A DNA stretch of 64,000 nucleotides, taken from contig JACQDL010000031.1 in assembly GCA_016201065.1 (NCBI GenBank), positions 62,001 to 126,000 of the forward strand, written 5' to 3'. Below are positions 3,911 through 28,094 of the stretch, piece after piece. The stretch is from Actinomycetota bacterium (lineage in GTDB: Bacteria > Actinomycetota > Actinomycetes > Mycobacteriales > JACQDL01). The position numbers and the translations under genes are program-made. The notes beneath the pieces are model-generated. The model saw nothing but the letters and a program-made list of their open reading frames with translations, made no database searches and had not been told where the DNA came from. Every line of letters begins with the position of its first letter. The first letter of the stretch is position 1.

Positions 3911-4162
3911 TTATCGGTTTCCTCGTACCAGACTGACGAGCTCCTCCGTCCGCCGCTGGTCCCTGATCGCGTAGTACGCCAGCAATGCCCGAAGATCGGT
4001 GGTCGAGATGCCTACCGAACCGGCCTCGATCCTGAGCATCTTCGACGCCGACCAGTCCATCGCGCGAGCAACTTCTTTCTGCGTGAAACCCGCCTGCTTC
4101 CGCGCGTCGCGTAGCTCGGCCCTCAACCGCTCAAGGTGCGCCTGCGAATCTCGGCCTGCCAT
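3911..4162 (-). CDS. Short XRE-family DNA-binding protein (HTH domain only)
   Basis: An 83-residue protein with a complete helix-turn-helix (LRDARKQAGFTQKEVARAMD, then WSASKMLRIEAG and ISTTDLRALLAYY). It closely resembles the N-terminal domain of the full-length XRE-DUF5753 regulator at 5554-6516. It stops at the position where DUF5753 would begin, so it is either a natural single-domain protein or a truncated paralogue. The reverse-strand sequence GAAAGGA precedes ATG 4162 at a workable distance. The small membrane-protein gene at 4270-4425 is just upstream on the same strand. Confidence 0.75.
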   Translation of the reverse strand: MAGRDSQAHLERLRAELRDARKQAGFTQKEVARAMDWSASKMLRIEAGSVGISTTDLRALLAYYAIRDQRRTEELVSLVRGNR

Positions 4163-5557: not shown

Positions 5558-6516
5558 TTCGCTGGCTCGCTGGCTCGAATATCGCCCGAGGTTGATGTTT
5601 CCCCCGTCTGGAGAGCCGATCTTTGGACCCACCTCTCCAGACGGGTCAACGCGCCGTCAAGCATCGCGGGCGCAACCTCCCTGTTCGCGATCTGCTCGAG
5701 CTGCCAAAAGATTCCGAGGTAGTTCACCGGATTGATCTTGTCCTTCTCTTCCGGCGAGTTCTCCCTGATGACGAAGTCTCCGAAAGGATTCTCCAGAAAC
5801 AGCACGTCTTCGTCCTCTACTTCTGGAAACTCGAACAACACATATGGCACGCGGAGCCTTGGATACATACCCTGCGTGAAGGGAACGATCCGGATCGTCA
5901 CGTTAGGAATGTCGGCCGCATCCCTGAGGCGTCGAAGCTGCCGGCGCGCAACTCCGTGGCCGCCGACCATGCGATGAATGACGGCCTCGTCGATAATGAA
6001 GTGAAGCAGCGGCGTCGGGTTTCGGACAAAGATCTCCTGGCGCTGCATGCGCAGATCCACCAGTGCGTCGATACGCTGCGGCGGGGTGTGGTCCTCGACG
6101 GTACTGATGACCTCCCGCGCGTACTCCTCGGTCTGCAGGAGCCCTGGGATCAACAACGGCTCGAAGTTACGTATGATCGACGCCGACGACTCGTACCCGA
6201 GAAAAGAGATGTACTCAGGGGTCGCGACGTCCTTGTAGATACTCCAGCGCGGCACGTCCCGTGCCGCCCGTGCAAGCTCGACAAGTGCCTCGACGCGCGC
6301 GTCCTCGACCCCGTAGTGTGCGAGCAGCGCGCGTAGATCATTGGTGCTGATGTTGACCGCGCCCGTCTCGATGCGGATCAACTTCGACTGCGACCACTCC
6401 ATCGCCGCGGCCGCGTCGCGCTGGGTCTTGCCGGCGGTCTCGCGTGCCTTCCGCAGCTCATTCCGCAGCCGACGACGATGGACCGTGGGATCTGGTCCGT
6501 GCGGTCCGACAGACAT
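5554..6516 (-). CDS. XRE-family regulator with C-terminal DUF5753
   Basis: A 320-residue protein. The HTH lies at about residues 15-75 (LRKARETAGKTQRDAAAAME, WSQSKLIRIETG, ISTNDLRALLAHY). DUF5753 follows, with the characteristic LLIPGLLQTEEYAREVI, the MQRQEIF segment, and FTQGMYPRLRVPYVLFEFP. ATG 6516 is chosen because the reverse strand carries GGAGGGGAG just upstream; an ATG 17 codons earlier lacks one. The role is as a DNA-binding partner of the convergent DUF397 protein. The short XRE protein at 3911-4162 looks like a paralogue of its DNA-binding domain. Confidence 0.92.
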   Translation of the reverse strand: MSVGPHGPDPTVHRRRLRNELRKARETAGKTQRDAAAAMEWSQSKLIRIETGAVNISTNDLRALLAHYGVEDARVEALVELARAARDVPRWSIYKDVATPEYISFLGYESSASIIRNFEPLLIPGLLQTEEYAREVISTVEDHTPPQRIDALVDLRMQRQEIFVRNPTPLLHFIIDEAVIHRMVGGHGVARRQLRRLRDAADIPNVTIRIVPFTQGMYPRLRVPYVLFEFPEVEDEDVLFLENPFGDFVIRENSPEEKDKINPVNYLGIFWQLEQIANREVAPAMLDGALTRLERWVQRSALQTGETSTSGDIRASEPAN

Positions 6517-7026
6517 CTGGATCTCCCCTCCGTGGTCCGAGATCCCCGTGGACCAAGGAACCAGCACTCGGCTAGGTAGCGCTCAGCAATAGAGCCGGAA
6601 GCGTAGTATACAAACGCCGCACGATGATTCGCGCCACCCGGAAGTGGCAATCTGGACGGTGATCTCGAACCGACCGGTCCGACCTGCGCGCGGTCCAAAG
6701 CACGTCGCTATTGATCTTGATCTTGAATTTGATCCCAAATGTTTGCCGCGACTGCCGGGCCGCGGAGGCCAGTGATCGGCACCGCACCGATCCTGCGTCC
6801 GAGCTCAAGACACGCGTACCCGAACGGCCTTGCCCTGGCACCGCCGGGAAGAACTGGGCCGGGGCCGATCAGGCCGGCCGCCGGGCCACCGGTCTGGTCG
6901 ACGTGCCCCGGTTCGGCGCAGACCGGACGCATCGGCCCGCAACGACGACGTCGCGAAGGGCTGACGCGGCGGCCGATGCGATGATCGCACCGCCGTCGCC
7001 CTGCGAAACCTCGGGAGAACGACCAC
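6517..7026. other. Intergenic region between divergent XRE-DUF5753 and TMEM175 genes
   Basis: About 510 bp with no gene I can support. It must hold the promoters of both flanking genes. The only structure noted is a short direct repeat at 6711-6734 (TTGATC twice, then TTGA and TTTGATC). Confidence 0.5.
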
Positions 7027-15525: not shown

Positions 15526-17352
15526 TCAGTCACGATCCAGTCGCCGCCTGAGCGTATCCAGCTCGTCGCGGAGCTGACTCGGCAGCCGCTCGCCGATGGT
15601 GGCGAACCAGTCCTCGATCAGCGGCACCTCGGCCAGCCACTCCGCCCGGTCGACGGCGAGCACTGCGGCGAGGTCCTCGGCCGGTACCTCCAGGCCCGCG
15701 ACGTCGAGCTCGCCATCGGCCGGGACGAGCCCGATCGCGGTGTCACGCGCGTGCGCGGTGCCTTCGATCCGTTCGACGACCCACCTCAGCACCCTGCTGT
15801 TCTCCCCGAAGCCCGGCCACAGGAAGTGACCGTCGGCGCCCTTGCGGAACCAGTTGACGTAGAAGATCCGGGGCAGCTTGGCCTCGTCGGCCTGCTTGCC
15901 GAGCTCGATCCAGTGACGGAAGTAGTCGCCCGCGTGGTAGCCCATGAAGGGCAGCATCGCCATCGGGTCACGGCGCACCACGCCCACCGCGCCGACCGCC
16001 GCGGCGGTGGTCTCCGACGACAACGTCGCCCCGAGGAACACACCGTGCCGCCAGTCCCTCGCCTCGGTCACCAGGGGCACCGTGTCCCGGCGCCGGCCAC
16101 CAAAGAGGATTGCCGAGATCGGGACACCCCGCGGGTCCTCCCACTCCGGCGCGATGATCGGGCACTGCCCGGCCGGAGTGCAGAACCGGGAGTTCGGGTG
16201 CGCCGACGGCACCCCCGCAGCTGGTGTCCAGCCGGCGTGCTTCCAGGAGGTCAGGTGCGCCGGCGGCTGCTTGGTCATCCCCTCCCACCACACGTCGCCG
16301 TCGTCGGTGAGCGCCACGTTGGTGAAGATCGAGTTGCCGGCCTCGATGGTACGCATGGCATTGCGGTTGGTGTGGTAGCCGGTGCCGGGCGCCACCCCGA
16401 AGAAGCCGTACTCCGGGTTGGTCGCGTAGAGCCGGCCGTCGGCACCGAACCGCATCCACGCGATGTCATCACCGATGATCTCGGCCCGCCAGCCCGGAAT
16501 CGTCGGTTCCAGCATGGCCAGGTTGGTCTTGCCGCACGCCGACGGGAACGCGGCCGCGATGTAGTGGACCTTCTCCTCCGGGCTGATCAGCTTCAGGATC
16601 AGCATGTGCTCGGCGAGCCAGCCCTCGTCCCGGGCGATGGCGCTGGCGATCCGCAGCGCGTAGCACTTCTTGCCGAGCAGGGCGTTGCCGCCGTAGCCGG
16701 AACCGAAGCTCCAGATCGCCCGCTCCTCGGGGAAGTGGCTGATGTACTTGGTGTCGTTGCACGGCCAGGGCACATCCTGCTGGCCAGGCTCCAGCGGCGC
16801 GCCGACCGAGTGCAGCCCGGCGACGAACTCGTCGACCTCGTCGATCCGCTCCTGGGCCCGACTGCCCATCCGGGTCATGATCCGCATCGACACCACGACG
16901 TACGGCGAGTCGGTGATCTCCACCCCGAGCTTCGGGTGCTCCGAGTCCAGCGGGCCCATGCAGAACGGAACGACGTACAGGGTGCGTCCCCGCATCGAAC
17001 CGCGGAACAGCTCGGTGAGCGTCGCCTTCATCTGGTCCGGCGCCATCCAGTTGTTGGTCGGCCCGGCGTCGATCTCCTCCGTGGAGCAGATGAAGGTGCG
17101 GTCCTCCACCCGGGCCACGTCGCTGGGGTCGGAGGCGCACCAGAACGAGTTCGGCTTCTTCGCCGCGTCCAGGCGAACGAACGTCCCGTTGTCGACAAGC
17201 AGCTGGGTCAGCCGGTCCCACTCGTCCGGCGAACCGTCGCACCACTCGACCCGGTCCGGCTGGGTCAGTTCGGCGATCTCCCGGACCCAGCTCAGCAGCC
17301 GCTCGTTCGCGGTCGGCGGGCTCTCCAGCCCGGGGACTGTCAACGTGGTCAT
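15526..17352 (-). CDS. pckG: Phosphoenolpyruvate carboxykinase (GTP)
   Basis: A 608-residue enzyme, the usual length. It converts oxaloacetate and GTP to PEP, CO2 and GDP and opens gluconeogenesis. Diagnostic segments are [40 protein letters not shown], the GTP P-loop [24 protein letters not shown] and [15 protein letters not shown] 17352 has GGGAGC upstream. It is monocistronic in appearance, with about 170 bp upstream. Confidence 0.97.
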
Positions 17353-17526
17353 CGGTACGCAGCTCCCTTGCGTCCTGATACCTCTGGTCTCGTGCTCCTC
17401 GGTGGCTGGACCTGGGTGCACGGCGAAACGGGATGTCCTCGAAGGGTAGCGGCGCGACGGACAGGTGCCAGCAAATGCACCTGCGAGTTCCCTCACAGGC
17501 CGGAGACACCGCGGCTGCGCGGTGGT

Positions 17527-18948
17527 TCACACCCCCTGGCTCACCGTGGACATGTTGAAATCGGGCACCCGGACCGCGGGCATCGCGGTGCGGTGGAAGT
17601 CGTCCCCCCACTCCCGGGGAAGGGTGATCTCGGTCCGGCTGACCTCGCTGATCCGACCGAGCAACCCAACCGGGCTCTCGTTGAACCGGAAGTTGTTCAC
17701 CGCTCCGACCACCTCGCCGCCCTCGACCAGGTACACCCCGTCACGGGTGAGTCCGGTCAGCAGCAAGGTCCGCGGGTCGACCACGCGGATGTACCACAGG
17801 CAGGTCAGCAACAGTCCTCGGCCGGTCCTGGACACGAGATCCGCCTCGGTAGCCGTGGCGCCCGGCGCGGTGAGGACGAGGTTGCCCACCGGAGCCACCG
17901 GAGCGGTCCCGGTTCGCTGCGCCCACGAACGGGTCCGGATCAGGTTGCTCAGCACTCCGTCGTCGATCCAGTTGACTGGCGAGACGGTGAGCCCGTTGTC
18001 GAACACCGACTGGGCCGAACCCGACGTGGTGGTGCTCAGGAACGGTGCGCAGGCCAGCCCTTCGGCAACCGGATCGCTGGCCAGCCGCAGCGGCAGCTCG
18101 GCCAGCCGGTCCCCGATCCGGGAACCGCCGCCACGCCGGGAGAACACCGTGCGCCCCTCGTCCGCGTCCCGGGCGTTCGCCATCCAGTACATGTAGATCA
18201 TCAGGTCGGCCACCGCCGTCGGCGGCAGGATGGTCTCGTACCGGCCGGCCGGCAGCTCGATCCGGTTCGCCGCCCACCCCAACCTCCGGGCCAGCCGCGC
18301 GTCCAGGCCGGCCACGTCCACATCGGCGAAGTCGCGGGTCGCCGCGCCGGTCCACACCGAACGGCCGAAATCCGGCGACTTGGCGTTCATCTCGACCCGG
18401 CCGGTCGGCTGGTCGTGCCGCAGGCGCAGCCCGGTGGAGGAGCCGAGGTATGTCGACTCCACCACGTGCTCGGCGAAACCGAACAGCAGCCGACCGTCGC
18501 CCCGCGCGGCACCGAAGGCCTCACCCAGCGCGGGCGCGAGCTCGGCGAAAACCCCGACCGAGGTCTCCGCCGGTGGCCCGTCCCACCCGGCGGAGCTGGC
18601 ACGATGGCCGGCCGGGGCGACCAGCGGCATGGCGTCCTCGGCGGGGCTGGCCTGCCGGGCGGCCCGTTCCGAGTTCTCGACCAGGGCGCGCAACGCGTCG
18701 GGTGTCACCGCGCTGCGCTCCAGCACCCCGACCGAGGTGCCGACCGCCCCCTTCACGAGGCTGAGGACCGCGACCCGCCGGGACCGCATCTCCCCGTTGG
18801 TGGTCAGGGTGTTGTTCGCCCAGCGGAGGTTCGTCTCGGTCCGGTCGGTGACGAGCACCACGCACCCGTCGGCGACGGACAGGGACAGCGCCCGCTCGAC
18901 GGTCTCCTGGGGGGAGAGGATGTAGGTGGAAACACCTGGGGTCGTCAC
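17527..18948 (-). CDS. tldE: TldE/PmbA-family partner of TldD protease
   Basis: A 473-residue protein of the TldD/PmbA fold, with late segments LTGLTRDGVYLVEGGEVVGA and NNFRFNESP. Known TldD/TldE pairs form a heterodimeric metalloprotease that processes modified peptides and degrades unfolded ones; the E subunit lacks the zinc motif. The GTG start overlaps the tldD stop by 4 bp, consistent with stoichiometric synthesis. Confidence 0.9.
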   Translation of the reverse strand: MTTPGVSTYILSPQETVERALSLSVADGCVVLVTDRTETNLRWANNTLTTNGEMRSRRVAVLSLVKGAVGTSVGVLERSAVTPDALRALVENSERAARQASPAEDAMPLVAPAGHRASSAGWDGPPAETSVGVFAELAPALGEAFGAARGDGRLLFGFAEHVVESTYLGSSTGLRLRHDQPTGRVEMNAKSPDFGRSVWTGAATRDFADVDVAGLDARLARRLGWAANRIELPAGRYETILPPTAVADLMIYMYWMANARDADEGRTVFSRRGGGSRIGDRLAELPLRLASDPVAEGLACAPFLSTTTSGSAQSVFDNGLTVSPVNWIDDGVLSNLIRTRSWAQRTGTAPVAPVGNLVLTAPGATATEADLVSRTGRGLLLTCLWYIRVVDPRTLLLTGLTRDGVYLVEGGEVVGAVNNFRFNESPVGLLGRISEVSRTEITLPREWGDDFHRTAMPAVRVPDFNMSTVSQGV

Positions 18949-20450
18949 TGGCCGCCCTCCTGGACCGTGTTGAGGATGTTGATCCCCCGGAACAACGCCG
19001 CGGGTGCGCCGTGGCTGACCGCGGCGATCTGGCCCGGCTGCGCCTTGCCGCAGTTGAACGCCCCACCGAGCCGCCAGGTCTGTGGGCCGCCGACCGCCTC
19101 CATCGCCCCCCAGAACTCGGTCGTCGTCGCCTGGTAGGCGACGTCCCGAAGCTGTCCGGCGAGCTCGCCGTTGCGGATCTCGAAGAATCGCTGACCAGTG
19201 AACTGGAAGTTGTACCGCTGCATGTCAATGGACCACGAGTTGTCGCCGACGATGTAGATCCCCCGCTCCACACCCGCGATCAGACCGCGGGTGTCCGGTC
19301 CGTCGGGGGCTGGTTGGAGGGACACGTTCGCCATCCGCTGCAGCGGGATGTGCCCTGGTGAGTCCGCGAACGCGCAGCCGTTGGACCGGCCGAGCCCCTT
19401 GAGCCGGGCCATCCGCCGGTCGAGCTGGTAGCCGGCGAGCACACCACCGGCGACGATGTCCCAGGCCTGGGTCTGCACGCCCTCGTCGTCGTACCCGATG
19501 GTCGCCAGGCCGTGCTCGACGGTCCGGTCACCGGTCACGTTCATCACCGGCGAGCCGTATCTCAACGTGCCGAGCTGGTCGAACGTCGCGAAGGAGGTGC
19601 CGGCGTACGCGGCCTCGTAGCCGAGCGCGCGGTCGAGCTCGGTGGCGTGCCCGATCGACTCGTGGATGGTGAGCCAGAGGTTCGACGGATCGATGACCAC
19701 GTCGTAGCAGCCCGGTTCGACCGAGCGGGCCTTCATCTTCTGCGCCAGCCACTCGGGGATCTCGCTCAGCTCCGCGGCCCAGTCCCAGGTCGGCCCGGTC
19801 AGGTACTCCCAACCCCGGCCGACCGGCGGTGCGCAGGTGCGCATCGTCTCGAACTGTCCCTGCGCCGCGTCCACCGCGGTCGCCTCCAGCACCGGGTGGA
19901 CGCGTACCCGCTGCTGGGTCGTGCGGGTGCCGGCGGTGTCGGCGTAGAACTTGTTCTCGATGACCTGGAGCACCGCGGCGTCGACATGGTCCACCCCGTC
20001 GGCGGCGAGCAGCCGCTCCGACCAGTCGGCCAGCAGCCCGACCTTGTCCCCGTCCGGCACGGCGAACGGGTCGACCTCATAGGACGACACCCAGGTCACA
20101 TCCGGGTACGCCGGCTCGTCGGCGAGCTCGACCCGCTCGGCCCGCAGCGCGGCGCTGACCTTGGCGACGGCGATGGCCCGTTCCGCCACCCGGACCGCCT
20201 CGGCGGTGGTCAGGACGACGCCAGCAGCGAACCCCCAGGTACCGTCGTGGACGACCCGCACTGCGAACCCGAGATCCTCGCCATCGTGCAGGTTCTCCAG
20301 CACCGCGTCGCGCAGCGTGATGCTCTGGCTTCGAATCCGCTCCAGCCGGAAGTCGGCGTGCTCCGCGCCCAGCTCGCGGGCGCGGGTGAGGGCCGCCTCC
20401 GCGAGCACCCGGGCGGGCAGCGCCAAGAAGGCCTGGTCGATCTCGGGCAC
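18945..20450 (-). CDS. tldD: TldD metalloprotease catalytic subunit
   Basis: A 501-residue protein with the HExxxH zinc site in WLTIHESIGHATELDRALGY at about residue 260, and the downstream GYDDEGV and GVERGIYIVGDNSWSID segments. It is the active half of the TldD/E protease. GTG 20450 has GAGGAGG just upstream. The region immediately 5' contains three degenerate 15-bp direct repeats. Confidence 0.93.
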   Translation of the reverse strand: MPEIDQAFLALPARVLAEAALTRARELGAEHADFRLERIRSQSITLRDAVLENLHDGEDLGFAVRVVHDGTWGFAAGVVLTTAEAVRVAERAIAVAKVSAALRAERVELADEPAYPDVTWVSSYEVDPFAVPDGDKVGLLADWSERLLAADGVDHVDAAVLQVIENKFYADTAGTRTTQQRVRVHPVLEATAVDAAQGQFETMRTCAPPVGRGWEYLTGPTWDWAAELSEIPEWLAQKMKARSVEPGCYDVVIDPSNLWLTIHESIGHATELDRALGYEAAYAGTSFATFDQLGTLRYGSPVMNVTGDRTVEHGLATIGYDDEGVQTQAWDIVAGGVLAGYQLDRRMARLKGLGRSNGCAFADSPGHIPLQRMANVSLQPAPDGPDTRGLIAGVERGIYIVGDNSWSIDMQRYNFQFTGQRFFEIRNGELAGQLRDVAYQATTTEFWGAMEAVGGPQTWRLGGAFNCGKAQPGQIAAVSHGAPAALFRGINILNTVQEGGQ

Positions 20451-21492: not shown

Positions 21493-21909
21493 TCACCTGG
21501 CCGGGTGGGACCCGGGTCGCTCGCGGGCGCCGATCGCATCGGCCGCCGCAGAGACGATCGACGCGATCGACGCGCTTCCCGGTGTGGCGGCCCGGAGCCT
21601 CGGCAGTACCGCGTCGATCTCCGCAACCACACGGTTCACGGCGGCGATCCGCCGGTCCAGACGACGGCGGCCCCGGTCACGCTCCGCGGCGTCGCTGCGG
21701 AGCGCGAGGTCGAGCTCCGCGATCTTCTGGTCCAGGGCCTCGACCCGGCGGTCGACCGCGTCGTTCAGGGCAAGGGTGAGCGCCTGCTCGGCGTCCAGGA
21801 ACTGGGCGGCGACCTCCGCCTCCACGGTGGCCCGGACCTCCCCGAGAGTCTCGACCAGCCACTGCCGGTAGTGCTGCTTGTCCGCGGCACGCCGACGCGA
21901 CCGGATCAT
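21493..21909 (-). pseudogene. Split C-terminal part of the dynamin-like GTPase
   Basis: A 138-codon continuation (MIRSRRRAADKQHYRQWLVE and a long charged coiled coil) lies in the same frame as the preceding GTPase ORF and follows its TAG stop directly. The coiled coil is what the end of a bacterial dynamin-like protein should look like. It is either a separately initiated fragment (TAGATG) or the remnant of one 644-codon gene after a sense-to-TAG change. No Shine-Dalgarno is obvious before this ATG, although re-initiation at TAGATG is possible. Confidence 0.7.
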
Positions 21910-23427
21910 CTAGGTCGAGGCGGCGAGCCCGAGCCCGACCGAGACGGGCAAGGTGACCGCTGCCGCGAGCCCCGCGCCCGCCATCGCCGGTACCAGCGCG
22001 ACCAGCCGCCCGGCGCCGAACCCAGCCATCACGCCGCCGAGGGCGACCACCCGGTCCTCGGGGCTCCGTGCTCGCCGTTCGGGCGTGGCCAGGCTCGCCG
22101 ACCAGCCAGGAGACCGGGCGAACCCCGCGTAGACCTCGGCCACCGCCTCCGGTACGAAGAGCTCGCCGAGCACCGCGTCGGTGACGCCGCACAGCCGGGC
22201 CAGCATCCGCTCGATGTGATGCCGGCTGAGGACCCGGATGACGGCGTCCAGCTCGGCCGGCAGCCGGTCCAGCGCAGGTTGGTCGGCCCGATCGATCCGG
22301 ACCCGCCAGTGCTGGGCCTGGTCGCGGATCTCCTGTTGGACCTCCGTCATGGTCTCCAGCCGGGCCCGCTGGATCTCGGCGCGGAGCCGGACCTGCCAGC
22401 TCCTACCGCCGGCGCGTCGCGCGCCGGCCAGCGCCTGCCGTTCGGCGTGCCACCCTTCGATCCCGCCCCGCTCGACGGCCAGCACCTCCCGTTCGGCCAG
22501 CAGGCGGTGGTCGAGAGTGGTGAGCAGGGTGCGCGCCGTCCGGAGCGTGTTGGCCCCGCGGAGCTGTTCGGCCTGGGCGGCGACCGACGTCCGGAGCAGA
22601 CGCCGCAACTCGGCCACCCTCGCCTCGGTGTGGAGCAGTGCGGTGAGCTCGGGTGCGGTGGCGGCCACCGCACGCTCGGCGAGACGCGCGGAGACCGGGA
22701 GGATGTCGGCGGTCGCGAGCCGCGGCGCCAGCCCGGCGAGCAACGCGCGGTCCTCGGCGAGGACCTCCCGCCAGCCCCGAAAGACGTCGATCTTCGTGAG
22801 GGCGACCACCACCAGCTCCACCGCCTCGCTGGCGACACGGAGGAACGTCAGCTCCGGATCGCCGAGCGGACCCGACGCGTCAGCCACGAACAGCAGCGCC
22901 GCCGCGTCCCGGACGGCCGCGAGCGCGAGCTCGCCGGGCGCGTCGACCAAGCCACCGAAGCCGGGCGCGTCGACCAGACTGAGCCCAGCCAGCATTGGCG
23001 AGGGGTGGGCGACCTCGATCAGCCTGGGTTGCGCCGGCTGATCCTGCTGCTCGCCTGGGGTGAACACCACATCCGCCAGACCAGCCACCGGCACCGGCAC
23101 CGGCAGCGCTGCGGCACCGCCGACCGGCAGGGCGCGCGCCTCGACCAACGGTCCGTGCCGGAACCGCACGGCGCAACCACTCACCAGCTCAGCGTTCACC
23201 GGCGACAGACCGGGCGCCGCCAGCAGAGCGTTGACCAGCGAGCTCTTGCCCCGCTTCACCTCACCGGCCACGACCACGGTCGGCGTGGACCAGGATCGAG
23301 CGGCGACTCGCCGTAGCTCCCCCGCCTCGCCGGGCGCCTGCTCGGCGAGGACGTCCAGCGCCGCCGCCGTGGCCGCGGTGACCTGACGCATCAGCTCCAG
23401 CGGGAGCCCACCGGACCCGGGTGTCAT
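21910..23427 (-). CDS. Dynamin-like GTPase B, interrupted by in-frame TAG
   Basis: A 505-residue protein with the G1 P-loop GEVKRGKSSLVNALL (about residue 55), a G3 site DAPGFGG and G4 TKID. A long helical stalk follows and it ends in a hydrophobic, Gly/Ala-rich pair of helices (VMAGFGAGRLVALVPAMAGA, LPVSVGLGLAAST). The stop falls right after this membrane-insertion segment and the frame continues for 138 codons. The start overlaps the stop of GTPase A by 4 bp. Streptomyces DynA/DynB, which support sporulation septation with FtsZ, are the nearest functional model. Confidence 0.85.
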   Translation of the reverse strand: MTPGSGGLPLELMRQVTAATAAALDVLAEQAPGEAGELRRVAARSWSTPTVVVAGEVKRGKSSLVNALLAAPGLSPVNAELVSGCAVRFRHGPLVEARALPVGGAAALPVPVPVAGLADVVFTPGEQQDQPAQPRLIEVAHPSPMLAGLSLVDAPGFGGLVDAPGELALAAVRDAAALLFVADASGPLGDPELTFLRVASEAVELVVVALTKIDVFRGWREVLAEDRALLAGLAPRLATADILPVSARLAERAVAATAPELTALLHTEARVAELRRLLRTSVAAQAEQLRGANTLRTARTLLTTLDHRLLAEREVLAVERGGIEGWHAERQALAGARRAGGRSWQVRLRAEIQRARLETMTEVQQEIRDQAQHWRVRIDRADQPALDRLPAELDAVIRVLSRHHIERMLARLCGVTDAVLGELFVPEAVAEVYAGFARSPGWSASLATPERRARSPEDRVVALGGVMAGFGAGRLVALVPAMAGAGLAAAVTLPVSVGLGLAAST

Positions 23428-24926
23428 GGGGCGGGGTCCTGGTCTGGATCGCCGGTGCCGACAGCCTCGGCTGCGTCACCCAACCGCTGCCAGAGCAGCA
23501 CGTAGCCGCGGTGCACGACATGCGCGATGCGACCCTGCGCGGGCGACGACCCAGCCGTGGCGAACGCCCGCCACGCACGTGCCCGACGCAGGGCCAGTTC
23601 CGCCAGCCCGCGTCGGTCAAGATGCGGCGCGCCGAGTTGGTCCACCGGATCACCGCCGTGCGCCAGCCGGTCCAGCTCGACGGCGAGTTGCTCCGGAACC
23701 CGCACCGCGCCGGAGGAGACCAGGGCAGCCGCCGCGACGACCCGCAACTGGTGCGCCAGCGGCTGCTGGGCCAACTCCTCCACGGCGTCGGCGATGACCG
23801 CCCGATCCCGCGCCGTCGCTGCCTGACGCCCGATGTGACGCAGTGCGGTCAGCGCCACGTTCGCCTTGATGCCGTCGGCGTGGCACCCGAACGCGTCCCC
23901 GACAAGGTCACGGAGTGGGGCGAGCCCGGACCGCTCGGCGAGCCGCCGGCGCAGCTCCCCGGTGGTCAGCGCGGCATCAACGGCCAGCAGGTCCGTGGCG
24001 TGCCGGATGCCGAAGAGGTCGAGGCGCTCCAGCAGCCGGAGCCGGCCCGCAACCGCAACCGCGATCGCAGGGTCCGGCCGGACGAACAGGTCGGCAGATC
24101 CGAGCAACAGCTCGCGCCGTCCCGGAGCCAATGCGGCCAGCTGCCGGAGCACCTCCCCGTCGGCCTCCGTGAGGCAGCCGGTCGCCGTCGTCTCCGCGAG
24201 CAGACCAGCCAGCGGCAGCACGGTGCGGAGTTGCTGCCGGAGCGCCCGCGCCTGGCTGGCAGCCAGCGAACGCGCCGCGGAGATCGGTTCCGGAGCGTCG
24301 AGCAGGTCAGCCTTGTTGAGCACGCCGATCGCGTTGATCGGGCTCGCCAGGCCGGGGACGGTCCGCGCCCGGAAGCCGGTCAGAGCCCGCGCGTCGTCGA
24401 CCCGTGCGGTCTGGGTGAACACGTAGAGGACGGCCTCGGCCCGGTCGAGGGCGGTTCGCGACCGGTGACCCCGGGCAGCGCCGGCTGGGCCGGGACCGGG
24501 CGTGTCGATGATGGTCACCGACCTCAGCGCGGCGCTCGTGCAGAACGCGTCGAGGTAGGCGATGCGGTCGATCGGCAGACCCAGCTCGGTGGGGACCACG
24601 CCATCGCCGTCGAACGGTACGGCGTACCGACCGCCGTCGGTGCCCACGACCTCGACCCGGTCGACCGGACCGTAGCGGAACCGGGTGACGAGCCGGGTGC
24701 ACTCCCGGACGTCGGTGGCCGCGACCCGCCGGCCGATCAGCGCGTTGACCACGGTCGACTTGCCCGCCTTGAGCCGGCCGGCCACCGCGAGCTGGAGCGG
24801 ATCGGACAGCCGCTCCAGCACCCGGTCCAGCCGCGCCGACGAGAGCCCGGACAGCCTCGGCCGCAGCTCGCGGCAGGTCTGCCCCACGGTCCGGCACAGC
24901 GGCCCGCCCGCTGTGTCCTGCCCCAC
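23424..24926 (-). CDS. Dynamin-like GTPase A
   Basis: A 500-residue protein from GTG 24926, chosen because GGGGGAGGAC lies just upstream; an in-frame extension further 5' looks non-coding. Motifs: G1 AGRLKAGKSTVVNALIG, G3 IIDTPGPGP and G4 LNKADLLD. The rest is helical. It is the first gene of a two-gene operon with GTPase B. Paired bacterial dynamins remodel or stabilise membranes, and in streptomycetes act at sporulation septa; that role here is inferred. Confidence 0.88.
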   Translation of the reverse strand: MGQDTAGGPLCRTVGQTCRELRPRLSGLSSARLDRVLERLSDPLQLAVAGRLKAGKSTVVNALIGRRVAATDVRECTRLVTRFRYGPVDRVEVVGTDGGRYAVPFDGDGVVPTELGLPIDRIAYLDAFCTSAALRSVTIIDTPGPGPAGAARGHRSRTALDRAEAVLYVFTQTARVDDARALTGFRARTVPGLASPINAIGVLNKADLLDAPEPISAARSLAASQARALRQQLRTVLPLAGLLAETTATGCLTEADGEVLRQLAALAPGRRELLLGSADLFVRPDPAIAVAVAGRLRLLERLDLFGIRHATDLLAVDAALTTGELRRRLAERSGLAPLRDLVGDAFGCHADGIKANVALTALRHIGRQAATARDRAVIADAVEELAQQPLAHQLRVVAAAALVSSGAVRVPEQLAVELDRLAHGGDPVDQLGAPHLDRRGLAELALRRARAWRAFATAGSSPAQGRIAHVVHRGYVLLWQRLGDAAEAVGTGDPDQDPAP

Positions 24927-25067
24927 GTGCGTCCTCCCCCGGTCACCAGCCGATGACGGCGTGACCCGCCGTGCACCACCCGACTGCATATCGTGCCAAT
25001 CGGCGCGGCCGGCCGCGAGTAGCGCGATAACGCGATCATTCAGACGCGACGGATATTCTTGGTCGAT

Positions 25068-25605: not shown

Positions 25606-27408
25606 TCACCGGGCCCCGAAGTTCCGCTGCCACCACGCACTCAGCTCGGCGACCGTCAGGTGACCGCTGCCAGCCAGGGCAAGAGCGAAGACGCCGGAAC
25701 GCCCATCGTCCCAGTACACCGCCCCGACCTCCGGACCGCCGTAGACCTCCAACCGCCCACCTGACCAGTGGCCCCTGGTCCCCGCCGTCCTCAGGATCGG
25801 TGGCAGCACCGTCTCCATGGTGTCCCGGAACACGCTGAGCTCGCGCGAGTCCCGCGCCCTGCCGAAGGACACCGTCATCCCACCGCGGTACTTGCATGTC
25901 GTGCTCCGGGGCACGGTGGTGGCCGACTGCCCGGCACCGAACCCGGGCCGGCAGGACTCGATCAGCGGAAATGTTGGACGGACATAGTCCAGCACCACGG
26001 CGTCGTCGAAGTGCCGGGCCAAGGCGGCGGTCGGATCCGGCGTCGAGGCCGAGCTCGCCGGACGGTCGACCTGGCCGCCGCCGGAGCCGCCGGTCGCACC
26101 GCGGCCGACCAACCCGAACACGGCGCCCACCAGGAGAGCGCCGCCGATGGCCGAGCCGGCGAGCAGGCCCGGGCCGATCCGGCGACGAGCCCGGCGGGGA
26201 CCGGGTGGCGGCGGTGCCGGATCGGTAGGCAGCGGTGCGCGGACCCGCAGCAGCCCAGGCGCGGGTAGCTGCGCAGGCGGGTCCACGTGCGCAGGCGCAC
26301 GCGCCGGCGGCCGGCCGAGCCAGACCTGCAACGCCCCGGCCACCACGCTCGTCTCCGGCTGGTCCAGCGTGCTGGGCAGTATCCCCAGATCCTGCTGCAT
26401 CAACCTGGCCACGAGCGGGATCCGGGACGACCCGCCAACCAGGAACACCCCGGCAAGCTCGCCGGGAGTGAGGCCGGCGTCGTCGATGGTCCGAGCCATC
26501 AGGTCGATGCTGCGGGCGAGGTCGGAGCGGATGAGGTCCTCGAACTCGGCGCGGGTCAGGTGGATCTCCGGCAGCGGATCGGGCAGGGCGAGATCCACGT
26601 GCGGGTACCGCGACAGCGCCTCCTTACCGTCACGTACGTCGACCGCGAACGCCCGGGCCCGCCAGCGGCTTGCCGCGTCGACCGGCGAACGCAACCGCCC
26701 CCAGGCCTCACCGGCCACCGGCCCGTCCAGCCGGCGGCCCAGATGCTCGACGATCGCGTGGTCGAAGTCCACGCCACCGAGATCCGGCAGGCCCGCCTCC
26801 GCCAGCACCCGGAACTGCGGCCCGTCCCGCCGCACCACCGCGGCGTCGAACGTGCCGCCACCAAGGTCATAGACGGCGACGGCGCGCCCGTCCGGCAGCC
26901 CCTCGGGCGCCCCGCCGGTGCCGGGACCGGCACCGGCGGTGAGCGCGAAGTAGGTGGCAGCCGCCACCGGCTCGGGGATCAGGACGAGGTCCCGCCGCAG
27001 CCCGGCCAGGGCCGCGGCCGAGGCCAACACCTCTCGACGCCGGGTGCCCCAACCCGCCGGGTGGGTCATCCTGACCTGATCCGGCTCGCCGCCGAGCTGC
27101 CGGCGCACCTCGCCGCCGATCCGCTTGAGCACCTCGGCGATCGCCACGGTCACCGGGAACGGCGTCGCGCCGAGCACGATGGTGCCGTCGTCGATCCGGC
27201 GCTTGGGGTTCGGCTCGTACCGGCTCGGGTCGGCCTGTGCCTGCCGTTCCGCGTCCCGGCCGACCGCCAGGGTGCCCTCATCGGTGAGGAAGACCGCCGA
27301 GGGCATCAGCGGTGACCCCTCCACCGCGATCAGGCGCACGGCGCCCGCACCGGTACCCACCGCCGCCACGGTGTTCGACGTGCCGAAATCGACGGCAAGC
27401 GTACGCAT
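25606..27408 (-). CDS. Membrane-anchored Hsp70-like protein
   Basis: A 600-residue protein. The first about 375 residues are an actin/Hsp70 ATPase domain: phosphate loop 1 LAVDFGTSNTV, phosphate loop 2 YDLGGGTFDAAV, and the adenosine motif FLVGGSSRIPL. No Hsp70 substrate-binding domain follows. Instead there is a Pro-rich linker, one membrane helix (GLLAGSAIGGALLVGAVFGL, about residues 415-435) and an extracytoplasmic domain of about 150 residues. Such architectures occur widely in actinomycetes and are thought to sense or organise the envelope; the precise role is unknown. GGGGGA precedes ATG 27408. Confidence 0.85.
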   Translation of the reverse strand: MRTLAVDFGTSNTVAAVGTGAGAVRLIAVEGSPLMPSAVFLTDEGTLAVGRDAERQAQADPSRYEPNPKRRIDDGTIVLGATPFPVTVAIAEVLKRIGGEVRRQLGGEPDQVRMTHPAGWGTRRREVLASAAALAGLRRDLVLIPEPVAAATYFALTAGAGPGTGGAPEGLPDGRAVAVYDLGGGTFDAAVVRRDGPQFRVLAEAGLPDLGGVDFDHAIVEHLGRRLDGPVAGEAWGRLRSPVDAASRWRARAFAVDVRDGKEALSRYPHVDLALPDPLPEIHLTRAEFEDLIRSDLARSIDLMARTIDDAGLTPGELAGVFLVGGSSRIPLVARLMQQDLGILPSTLDQPETSVVAGALQVWLGRPPARAPAHVDPPAQLPAPGLLRVRAPLPTDPAPPPPGPRRARRRIGPGLLAGSAIGGALLVGAVFGLVGRGATGGSGGGQVDRPASSASTPDPTAALARHFDDAVVLDYVRPTFPLIESCRPGFGAGQSATTVPRSTTCKYRGGMTVSFGRARDSRELSVFRDTMETVLPPILRTAGTRGHWSGGRLEVYGGPEVGAVYWDDGRSGVFALALAGSGHLTVAELSAWWQRNFGAR

Positions 27409-27572
27409 CGGTCCCCCTGCCAGCGCAGATCCTCCAGCGAATCCGGACCCGATCTCAAATCCTGCCATATCGGGACCTGCTGGCCGGTCGACGAGGCGGG
27501 TGCCACCCGGCCGCCGGCCCGGCATGCCGGCAACCGTGCCCGCTCCACCGCTCCCGCTGCGACAATGGCCCG

Positions 27573-28094
27573 ATGTCGCTTCCCGCGCCGTTTCGGGTGT
27601 GTTTTGTCTGCTCGGGCAACATCTGCCGCTCGCCGATGGCAGCGGCGGTACTACGTCGCCTGGTCGCCGATGCCGACCTGGCGGAGCGGGTCGTCGTGGA
27701 CAGCGCGGGCACCGGTGGATGGCACCTGGGCGCTCCGGCCGACCCGCGCACACACGCCACACTGCACCGGCACGGGTACGCCGCGGACACCGATCCGGCA
27801 CGGCAGTGGTCGGCCACCGACTTCGCCGAACGGGACCTCGTGGTCGCTCTCGACCGCAGCCACCTGCGTGAGCTGACCCGGCTCGCCCCGGACGAACCCG
27901 CCCGAGCCAAGATCCGGTTGCTCCGCCCCTACGGCGTCGCCCCGGGGTCCCCGCCGCTGACCGGCCGAGACCTCGACGTCCCTGACCCGTACTACGGCGG
28001 TCCGGCGGGATTCGGCGAGGTGTTCGATCTCGTGGAGAACGGCTGTCGCGGCATCCTCACCGCGATCAACGACCGGCTGGGCGTGACCCGGTGA
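27573..28094 (+). CDS. Low-molecular-weight protein tyrosine phosphatase
   Basis: A 173-residue enzyme with the catalytic P-loop VCSGNICRSPMA (Cys13, Arg19) and the general-acid loop DVPDPYYGG near the C-terminus. It removes phosphate from tyrosine residues in cytoplasmic proteins. Its stop overlaps the GTG of the downstream acyl-CoA synthetase, so the two genes are coupled. Confidence 0.92.
   Translation: MSLPAPFRVCFVCSGNICRSPMAAAVLRRLVADADLAERVVVDSAGTGGWHLGAPADPRTHATLHRHGYAADTDPARQWSATDFAERDLVVALDRSHLRELTRLAPDEPARAKIRLLRPYGVAPGSPPLTGRDLDVPDPYYGGPAGFGEVFDLVENGCRGILTAINDRLGVTR

Follow-up and report, generated by a model that had tools for sequence, protein, structure and literature searches.

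The dynamin locus and its reading frame

The window, a 64,000-nucleotide stretch of the draft genome of an Actinomycetota bacterium, contains two dynamin-like genes on the minus strand, dyn1 and dyn2, with an Hsp70-like gene upstream of the pair (Table 1). In the ORF analysis of the window, the minus-strand frame from 23427 to 21493 was open except for one TAG at 21912-21910, which divides it into 505 and 138 codons. The codon directly 3' of the TAG is an ATG (21909-21907) in the same frame. The original prediction had described this arrangement, a 505-codon GTPase ORF ending in TAG and a 138-codon ORF opened by the adjoining ATG, and the coordinates were confirmed. A search of the source genome, 3.65 Mb in 65 contigs, returned a single full-length dyn2 match with exactly one internal stop, the TAG, and no insertion or repeat scar was seen at the TAG junction. 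The two dynamin genes overlap by ATGA, and the dyn1 ORF is open up to 25337 on the minus strand.

Table 1 Features of the dynamin locus (window coordinates).
Feature	Coordinates	Strand	Description
dyn1	23424..24989	-	Partner dynamin, about 521 codons if the start is ATG 24989
dyn2, first part	21910..23427	-	505 codons: Dynamin_N GTPase domain, trunk helices, hydrophobic hairpin; ends in TAG
In-frame TAG	21910..21912	-	118 homologous loci carry TGG (108), TTC (7), TAC/TAT (3)
dyn2, second part	21493..21909	-	138 codons from ATG: remainder of the long return helix, neck helix, tail
Hsp70-like gene	25606..27801	-	Upstream of dyn1; likely start ATG 27408
tldD-like gene	18945..20450	-

Dynamin_N was detected in both dyn1 and dyn2, and the match of dyn2 to PF00350 exceeds the cut-off. 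Three GTPase motifs of dyn2 are intact: GEVKRGKS (P-loop GxxxxGKS), DAPG (DxPG) and TKID (TKxD). Judged by its sequence, dyn2 is an IniA-like bacterial dynamin, the intact form of which would be expected to hydrolyse GTP and remodel membranes.

The length of the second ORF is not evidence by itself: at 70% GC, chance yields an open frame of 138 codons after a stop in about 13% of Markov sequences, and such a frame also follows the stop in 55 of 238 long ORFs. The second ORF gains its significance from homology: it matches the C-terminal part of uninterrupted dynamins at 39-50% identity and carries on directly from the first ORF.

In the eight neighbourhoods examined, a dyn1 homologue always precedes dyn2 (8/8), an Hsp70-like gene lies near the pair in six, and an HTH gene and tldD/tldE recur nearby. 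The tldD/tldE genes are also 3' of dyn2 in an antarctic Pseudonocardiales MAG (G010) and in genome G003. Separately, in another genome of the order that is 74% complete (L047; G032:C80:9000-22000), the dyn1 and dyn2 homologues each appear to be in two pieces with frameshift-like breaks, at about 4010-4016 and 6486-6791, which may be draft errors or parallel loss.

Homologues and evolution of the two halves

We compared dyn2 with homologues from two sources. An order-wide search recovered full-length homologues in many families, the best of which was G010 at 47% identity, with none nearer. A collection scan with a single protein as the query gave no match; with the alignment as the query, 80 named loci were kept, mostly from Pseudonocardiaceae and including Amycolatopsis, Lentzea, Saccharopolyspora and Saccharothrix. 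The two sets overlap in some genomes, and the 118 loci represent 113 distinct aligned sequences. Micromonosporaceae had been named beforehand as the family to align; the closest homologues recovered belong instead to Pseudonocardiales/Pseudonocardiaceae.

Position 506 is a sense codon in 118 of the 118 loci (TGG in 108, TTC in 7, TAC in 2 and TAT in 1), and none of them has a split dyn2 gene. In-alignment stops occur in only five loci, all at positions 611-631, and these are natural ends. In G010 the site reads TGG-ATG, and dyn2 is one 634-aa ORF in the syntenic place. The Pseudonocardiales orthologues (QHCD01000043.1, Amycolatopsis, Lentzea, Saccharopolyspora) are the same gene in the same dyn1-dyn2 order at 37-47% identity, and they carry TGG, TTC, TAC or TAT where dyn2 in the window carries TAG. 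These results bear out the proposal of one 644-codon gene cut by a change of TGG to TAG or similar, and dispose of the possibility that the homologues all stop at the same point. A stop at a site that is read as an amino acid in every orthologue is one mark of a unitary pseudogene made by nonsense mutation, and dyn2 shows it.

The codon after position 506 is ATG in 91 of the 118 loci and ATC in 17, the remainder having CTG, CTT or GTC. Since this ATG is common in relatives that lack the stop, the TAG-ATG is, on the evidence of the alignment, the family's ordinary Trp-Met pair after a single-base change, with no designed restart site.

The two halves of dyn2 were similar in composition, with codon usage and GC by codon position equal on both sides of the TAG. 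Of 12 columns that 90% of relatives conserve, the C-part retains 10, and it shows no acceleration against G010; its terminal branch was 0.31 versus 0.51 for G010, in a 106-column tree that does not pair dyn2 with G010. The terminal branch of the N-part was 0.86 versus 0.28 for G010. Several GTPase-domain residues that are conserved in G010 are altered in dyn2, for example the switch-I Thr83, which is Ser. Relaxed selection after the stop, a further mark of a pseudogene, was not found, the C-part rate and codon usage being normal. Since the C-part is undecayed, the break, if real, is recent. Such preservation would be compatible with a mutation of recent date, with an error in the consensus or with a C-part that is still being made.

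dyn1 was mildly accelerated with most outgroups, and tldD and tldE were not. Over 21910-24989 (minus strand), evolution of dyn1 and of the dyn2 GTPase part is about 1.5-2x faster than in G010 with most outgroups; the adjacent tldD and tldE show no such increase. It seems, then, that the dynamin pair has been evolving faster in this lineage for some time, with the region 3' of the stop undecayed.

TAG as a stop and its effect on the protein

TAG is a normal stop in this organism. RF1 (prfA) is intact, and no CUA anticodon, which would read UAG, was present among the 45 tRNA genes found. A simple codon-usage method predicted about 190 genes on the 206-kb contig, and they end in TGA (150), TAG (34, about 18%) or TAA (6); the SSB gene (ssb), directly before the ribosomal protein S18 gene, ends in TAG. 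The idea that TAG is reassigned to an amino acid, which has in its favour only that the TAG sits within a conserved gene, is largely refuted by these three results and can practically be dismissed; they indicate one interrupted gene and no code change.

No further in-frame breaks were seen among the roughly 190 predicted genes of the same contig, which gives no sign of a poor consensus. Other close-set same-frame pairs were considered as broken genes, and those checked were distinct genes: YbaB/RecR, prohead protease/capsid, and DNA polymerase III beta-like/EamA transporter.

Three regions outside the window, on contig C51, were also recorded. At about 16394-18397 (L049), a prohead protease gene is directly followed by an in-frame phage capsid gene, a prophage or remnant. 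An in-frame pair at 136815-138953 (L055:16815-18953) consists of a DNA polymerase III beta-clamp family gene and, directly 3' of it, an EamA transporter gene. At 185086-185320 (L099), matches to tRNA-Leu(gag), tRNA-Leu(cag) and tRNA-Tyr(gta) are tightly clustered; they are weak and their anticodons are duplicated elsewhere in the genome, and carriage by a mobile element is possible.

The effect of the stop was considered on an AlphaFold model of read-through dyn2 (mean pLDDT 77, pTM 0.57), in which the hairpin at about 465-490 was poorly predicted. The model has a helix-bundle stalk (neck and trunk). Residue 506 is within one long predicted helix (487-577), followed by a helix at 580-613, and the return helices lie 3' of the TAG and are missing from the 505-aa product. 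The nearest solved structure by sequence, profile and fold is IniA of Mycobacterium smegmatis (PDB 6j72, 6j73; iniBAC operon), which matches dyn2 almost from end to end. IniA and dyn2, as modelled with read-through, share a GTPase domain and two helix bundles closed by C-terminal helices, and each has a second dynamin in the same operon. They differ in that identity is only about 20%, in the dyn2 family a hydrophobic, hairpin-like stretch at about 455-505 takes the place of the IniA lipid loop, and dyn2 in the window, unlike IniA, is interrupted by TAG. The trunk and neck of IniA are completed by its C-terminal helices 11a and 11b, which follow the lipid loop, and IniA without HB2 loses tethering and fission and still binds lipid (PMC6715688). 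By analogy, the 505-residue product would keep the GTPase domain and perhaps bind membrane, and would be unable to form a normal stalk.

Origin of the stop and fate of the gene

We consider it probable that the TAG arose recently, by a nonsense change of one base in dyn2, the second member of the IniA-like dynamin pair dyn1-dyn2, of which dyn1 is unbroken. An ancestral TGG (Trp) at codon 506, as in nearly all relatives, would have changed to TAG. Ribosomes would then stop after residue 505, within the long helix 3' of the hydrophobic hairpin, and the product would have the GTPase domain and lack the helices that return to close trunk and neck. With such a product, dyn2 has most likely lost all or almost all function in the sequenced organism. 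We infer that the base is genuine and no consensus error, and that the change is recent.

Next in rank, and unlikely, is an intact dyn2 for which the TAG is either a single-base assembly error of the draft or a variant carried by the minority of a mixed population. A one-base difference in a 65-contig draft, as a single isolated event with no decay 3' of it, is what such an error would leave; the clean reading frames of the other predicted genes on the contig argue against it, as does the faster evolution of dyn1 and the dyn2 first part relative to G010, which fits a module under weakened constraint.

Re-initiation at the adjoining ATG, giving chains of 505 and 138 residues that assemble into one dynamin, had been put forward as the alternative to a cut gene and found no positive support; we regard it as improbable. 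Adjacent stop and start codons are an arrangement able to permit re-initiation in bacteria (PMC5972666), and the C-part shows the conservation that a coding region should have, in contrast to the accelerated N-part. Against this, the ATG is the relatives' usual Met and, being present in loci free of the stop, did not arise for restarting; there is no clear Shine-Dalgarno sequence 5' of it, the AlphaFold model puts the cut in the middle of a helix rather than between domains, and no relative has a split gene. Slightly less probable again is a specific form of this, a two-chain dynamin in which a fast-evolving GTPase/hairpin chain and a re-initiated, constant return-helix chain would reassemble into one stalk.

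More doubtful still is down-regulation by partial read-through, in which some ribosomes would pass the TAG and make small amounts of full-length protein. Belinky et al. 2021 (PMC7918605) report that bacterial genes commonly contain in-frame stops under purifying selection; here, no suppressor tRNA was found among the 45 tRNA genes, TAG occurs at the site in no relative, and the RNA structure 3' of the stop is unremarkable (z -1.8) and was rejected as a recoding signal. The cases of Belinky et al. 2021 resemble dyn2 in that one nonsense codon interrupts a gene that is conserved in other respects, and differ in that dN/dS was measured there among close relatives, whereas the nearest relative of dyn2 is that at 47% identity. 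As in-frame stops in bacterial genes are known and common, the novelty of the dyn2 stop is low.

For annotation, a single interrupted gene is the appropriate record for the two ORFs. A genuine stop would mean that one member of a dynamin pair kept together in related organisms is being lost in this lineage, which would then provide a natural test of whether the remaining partner can act alone.
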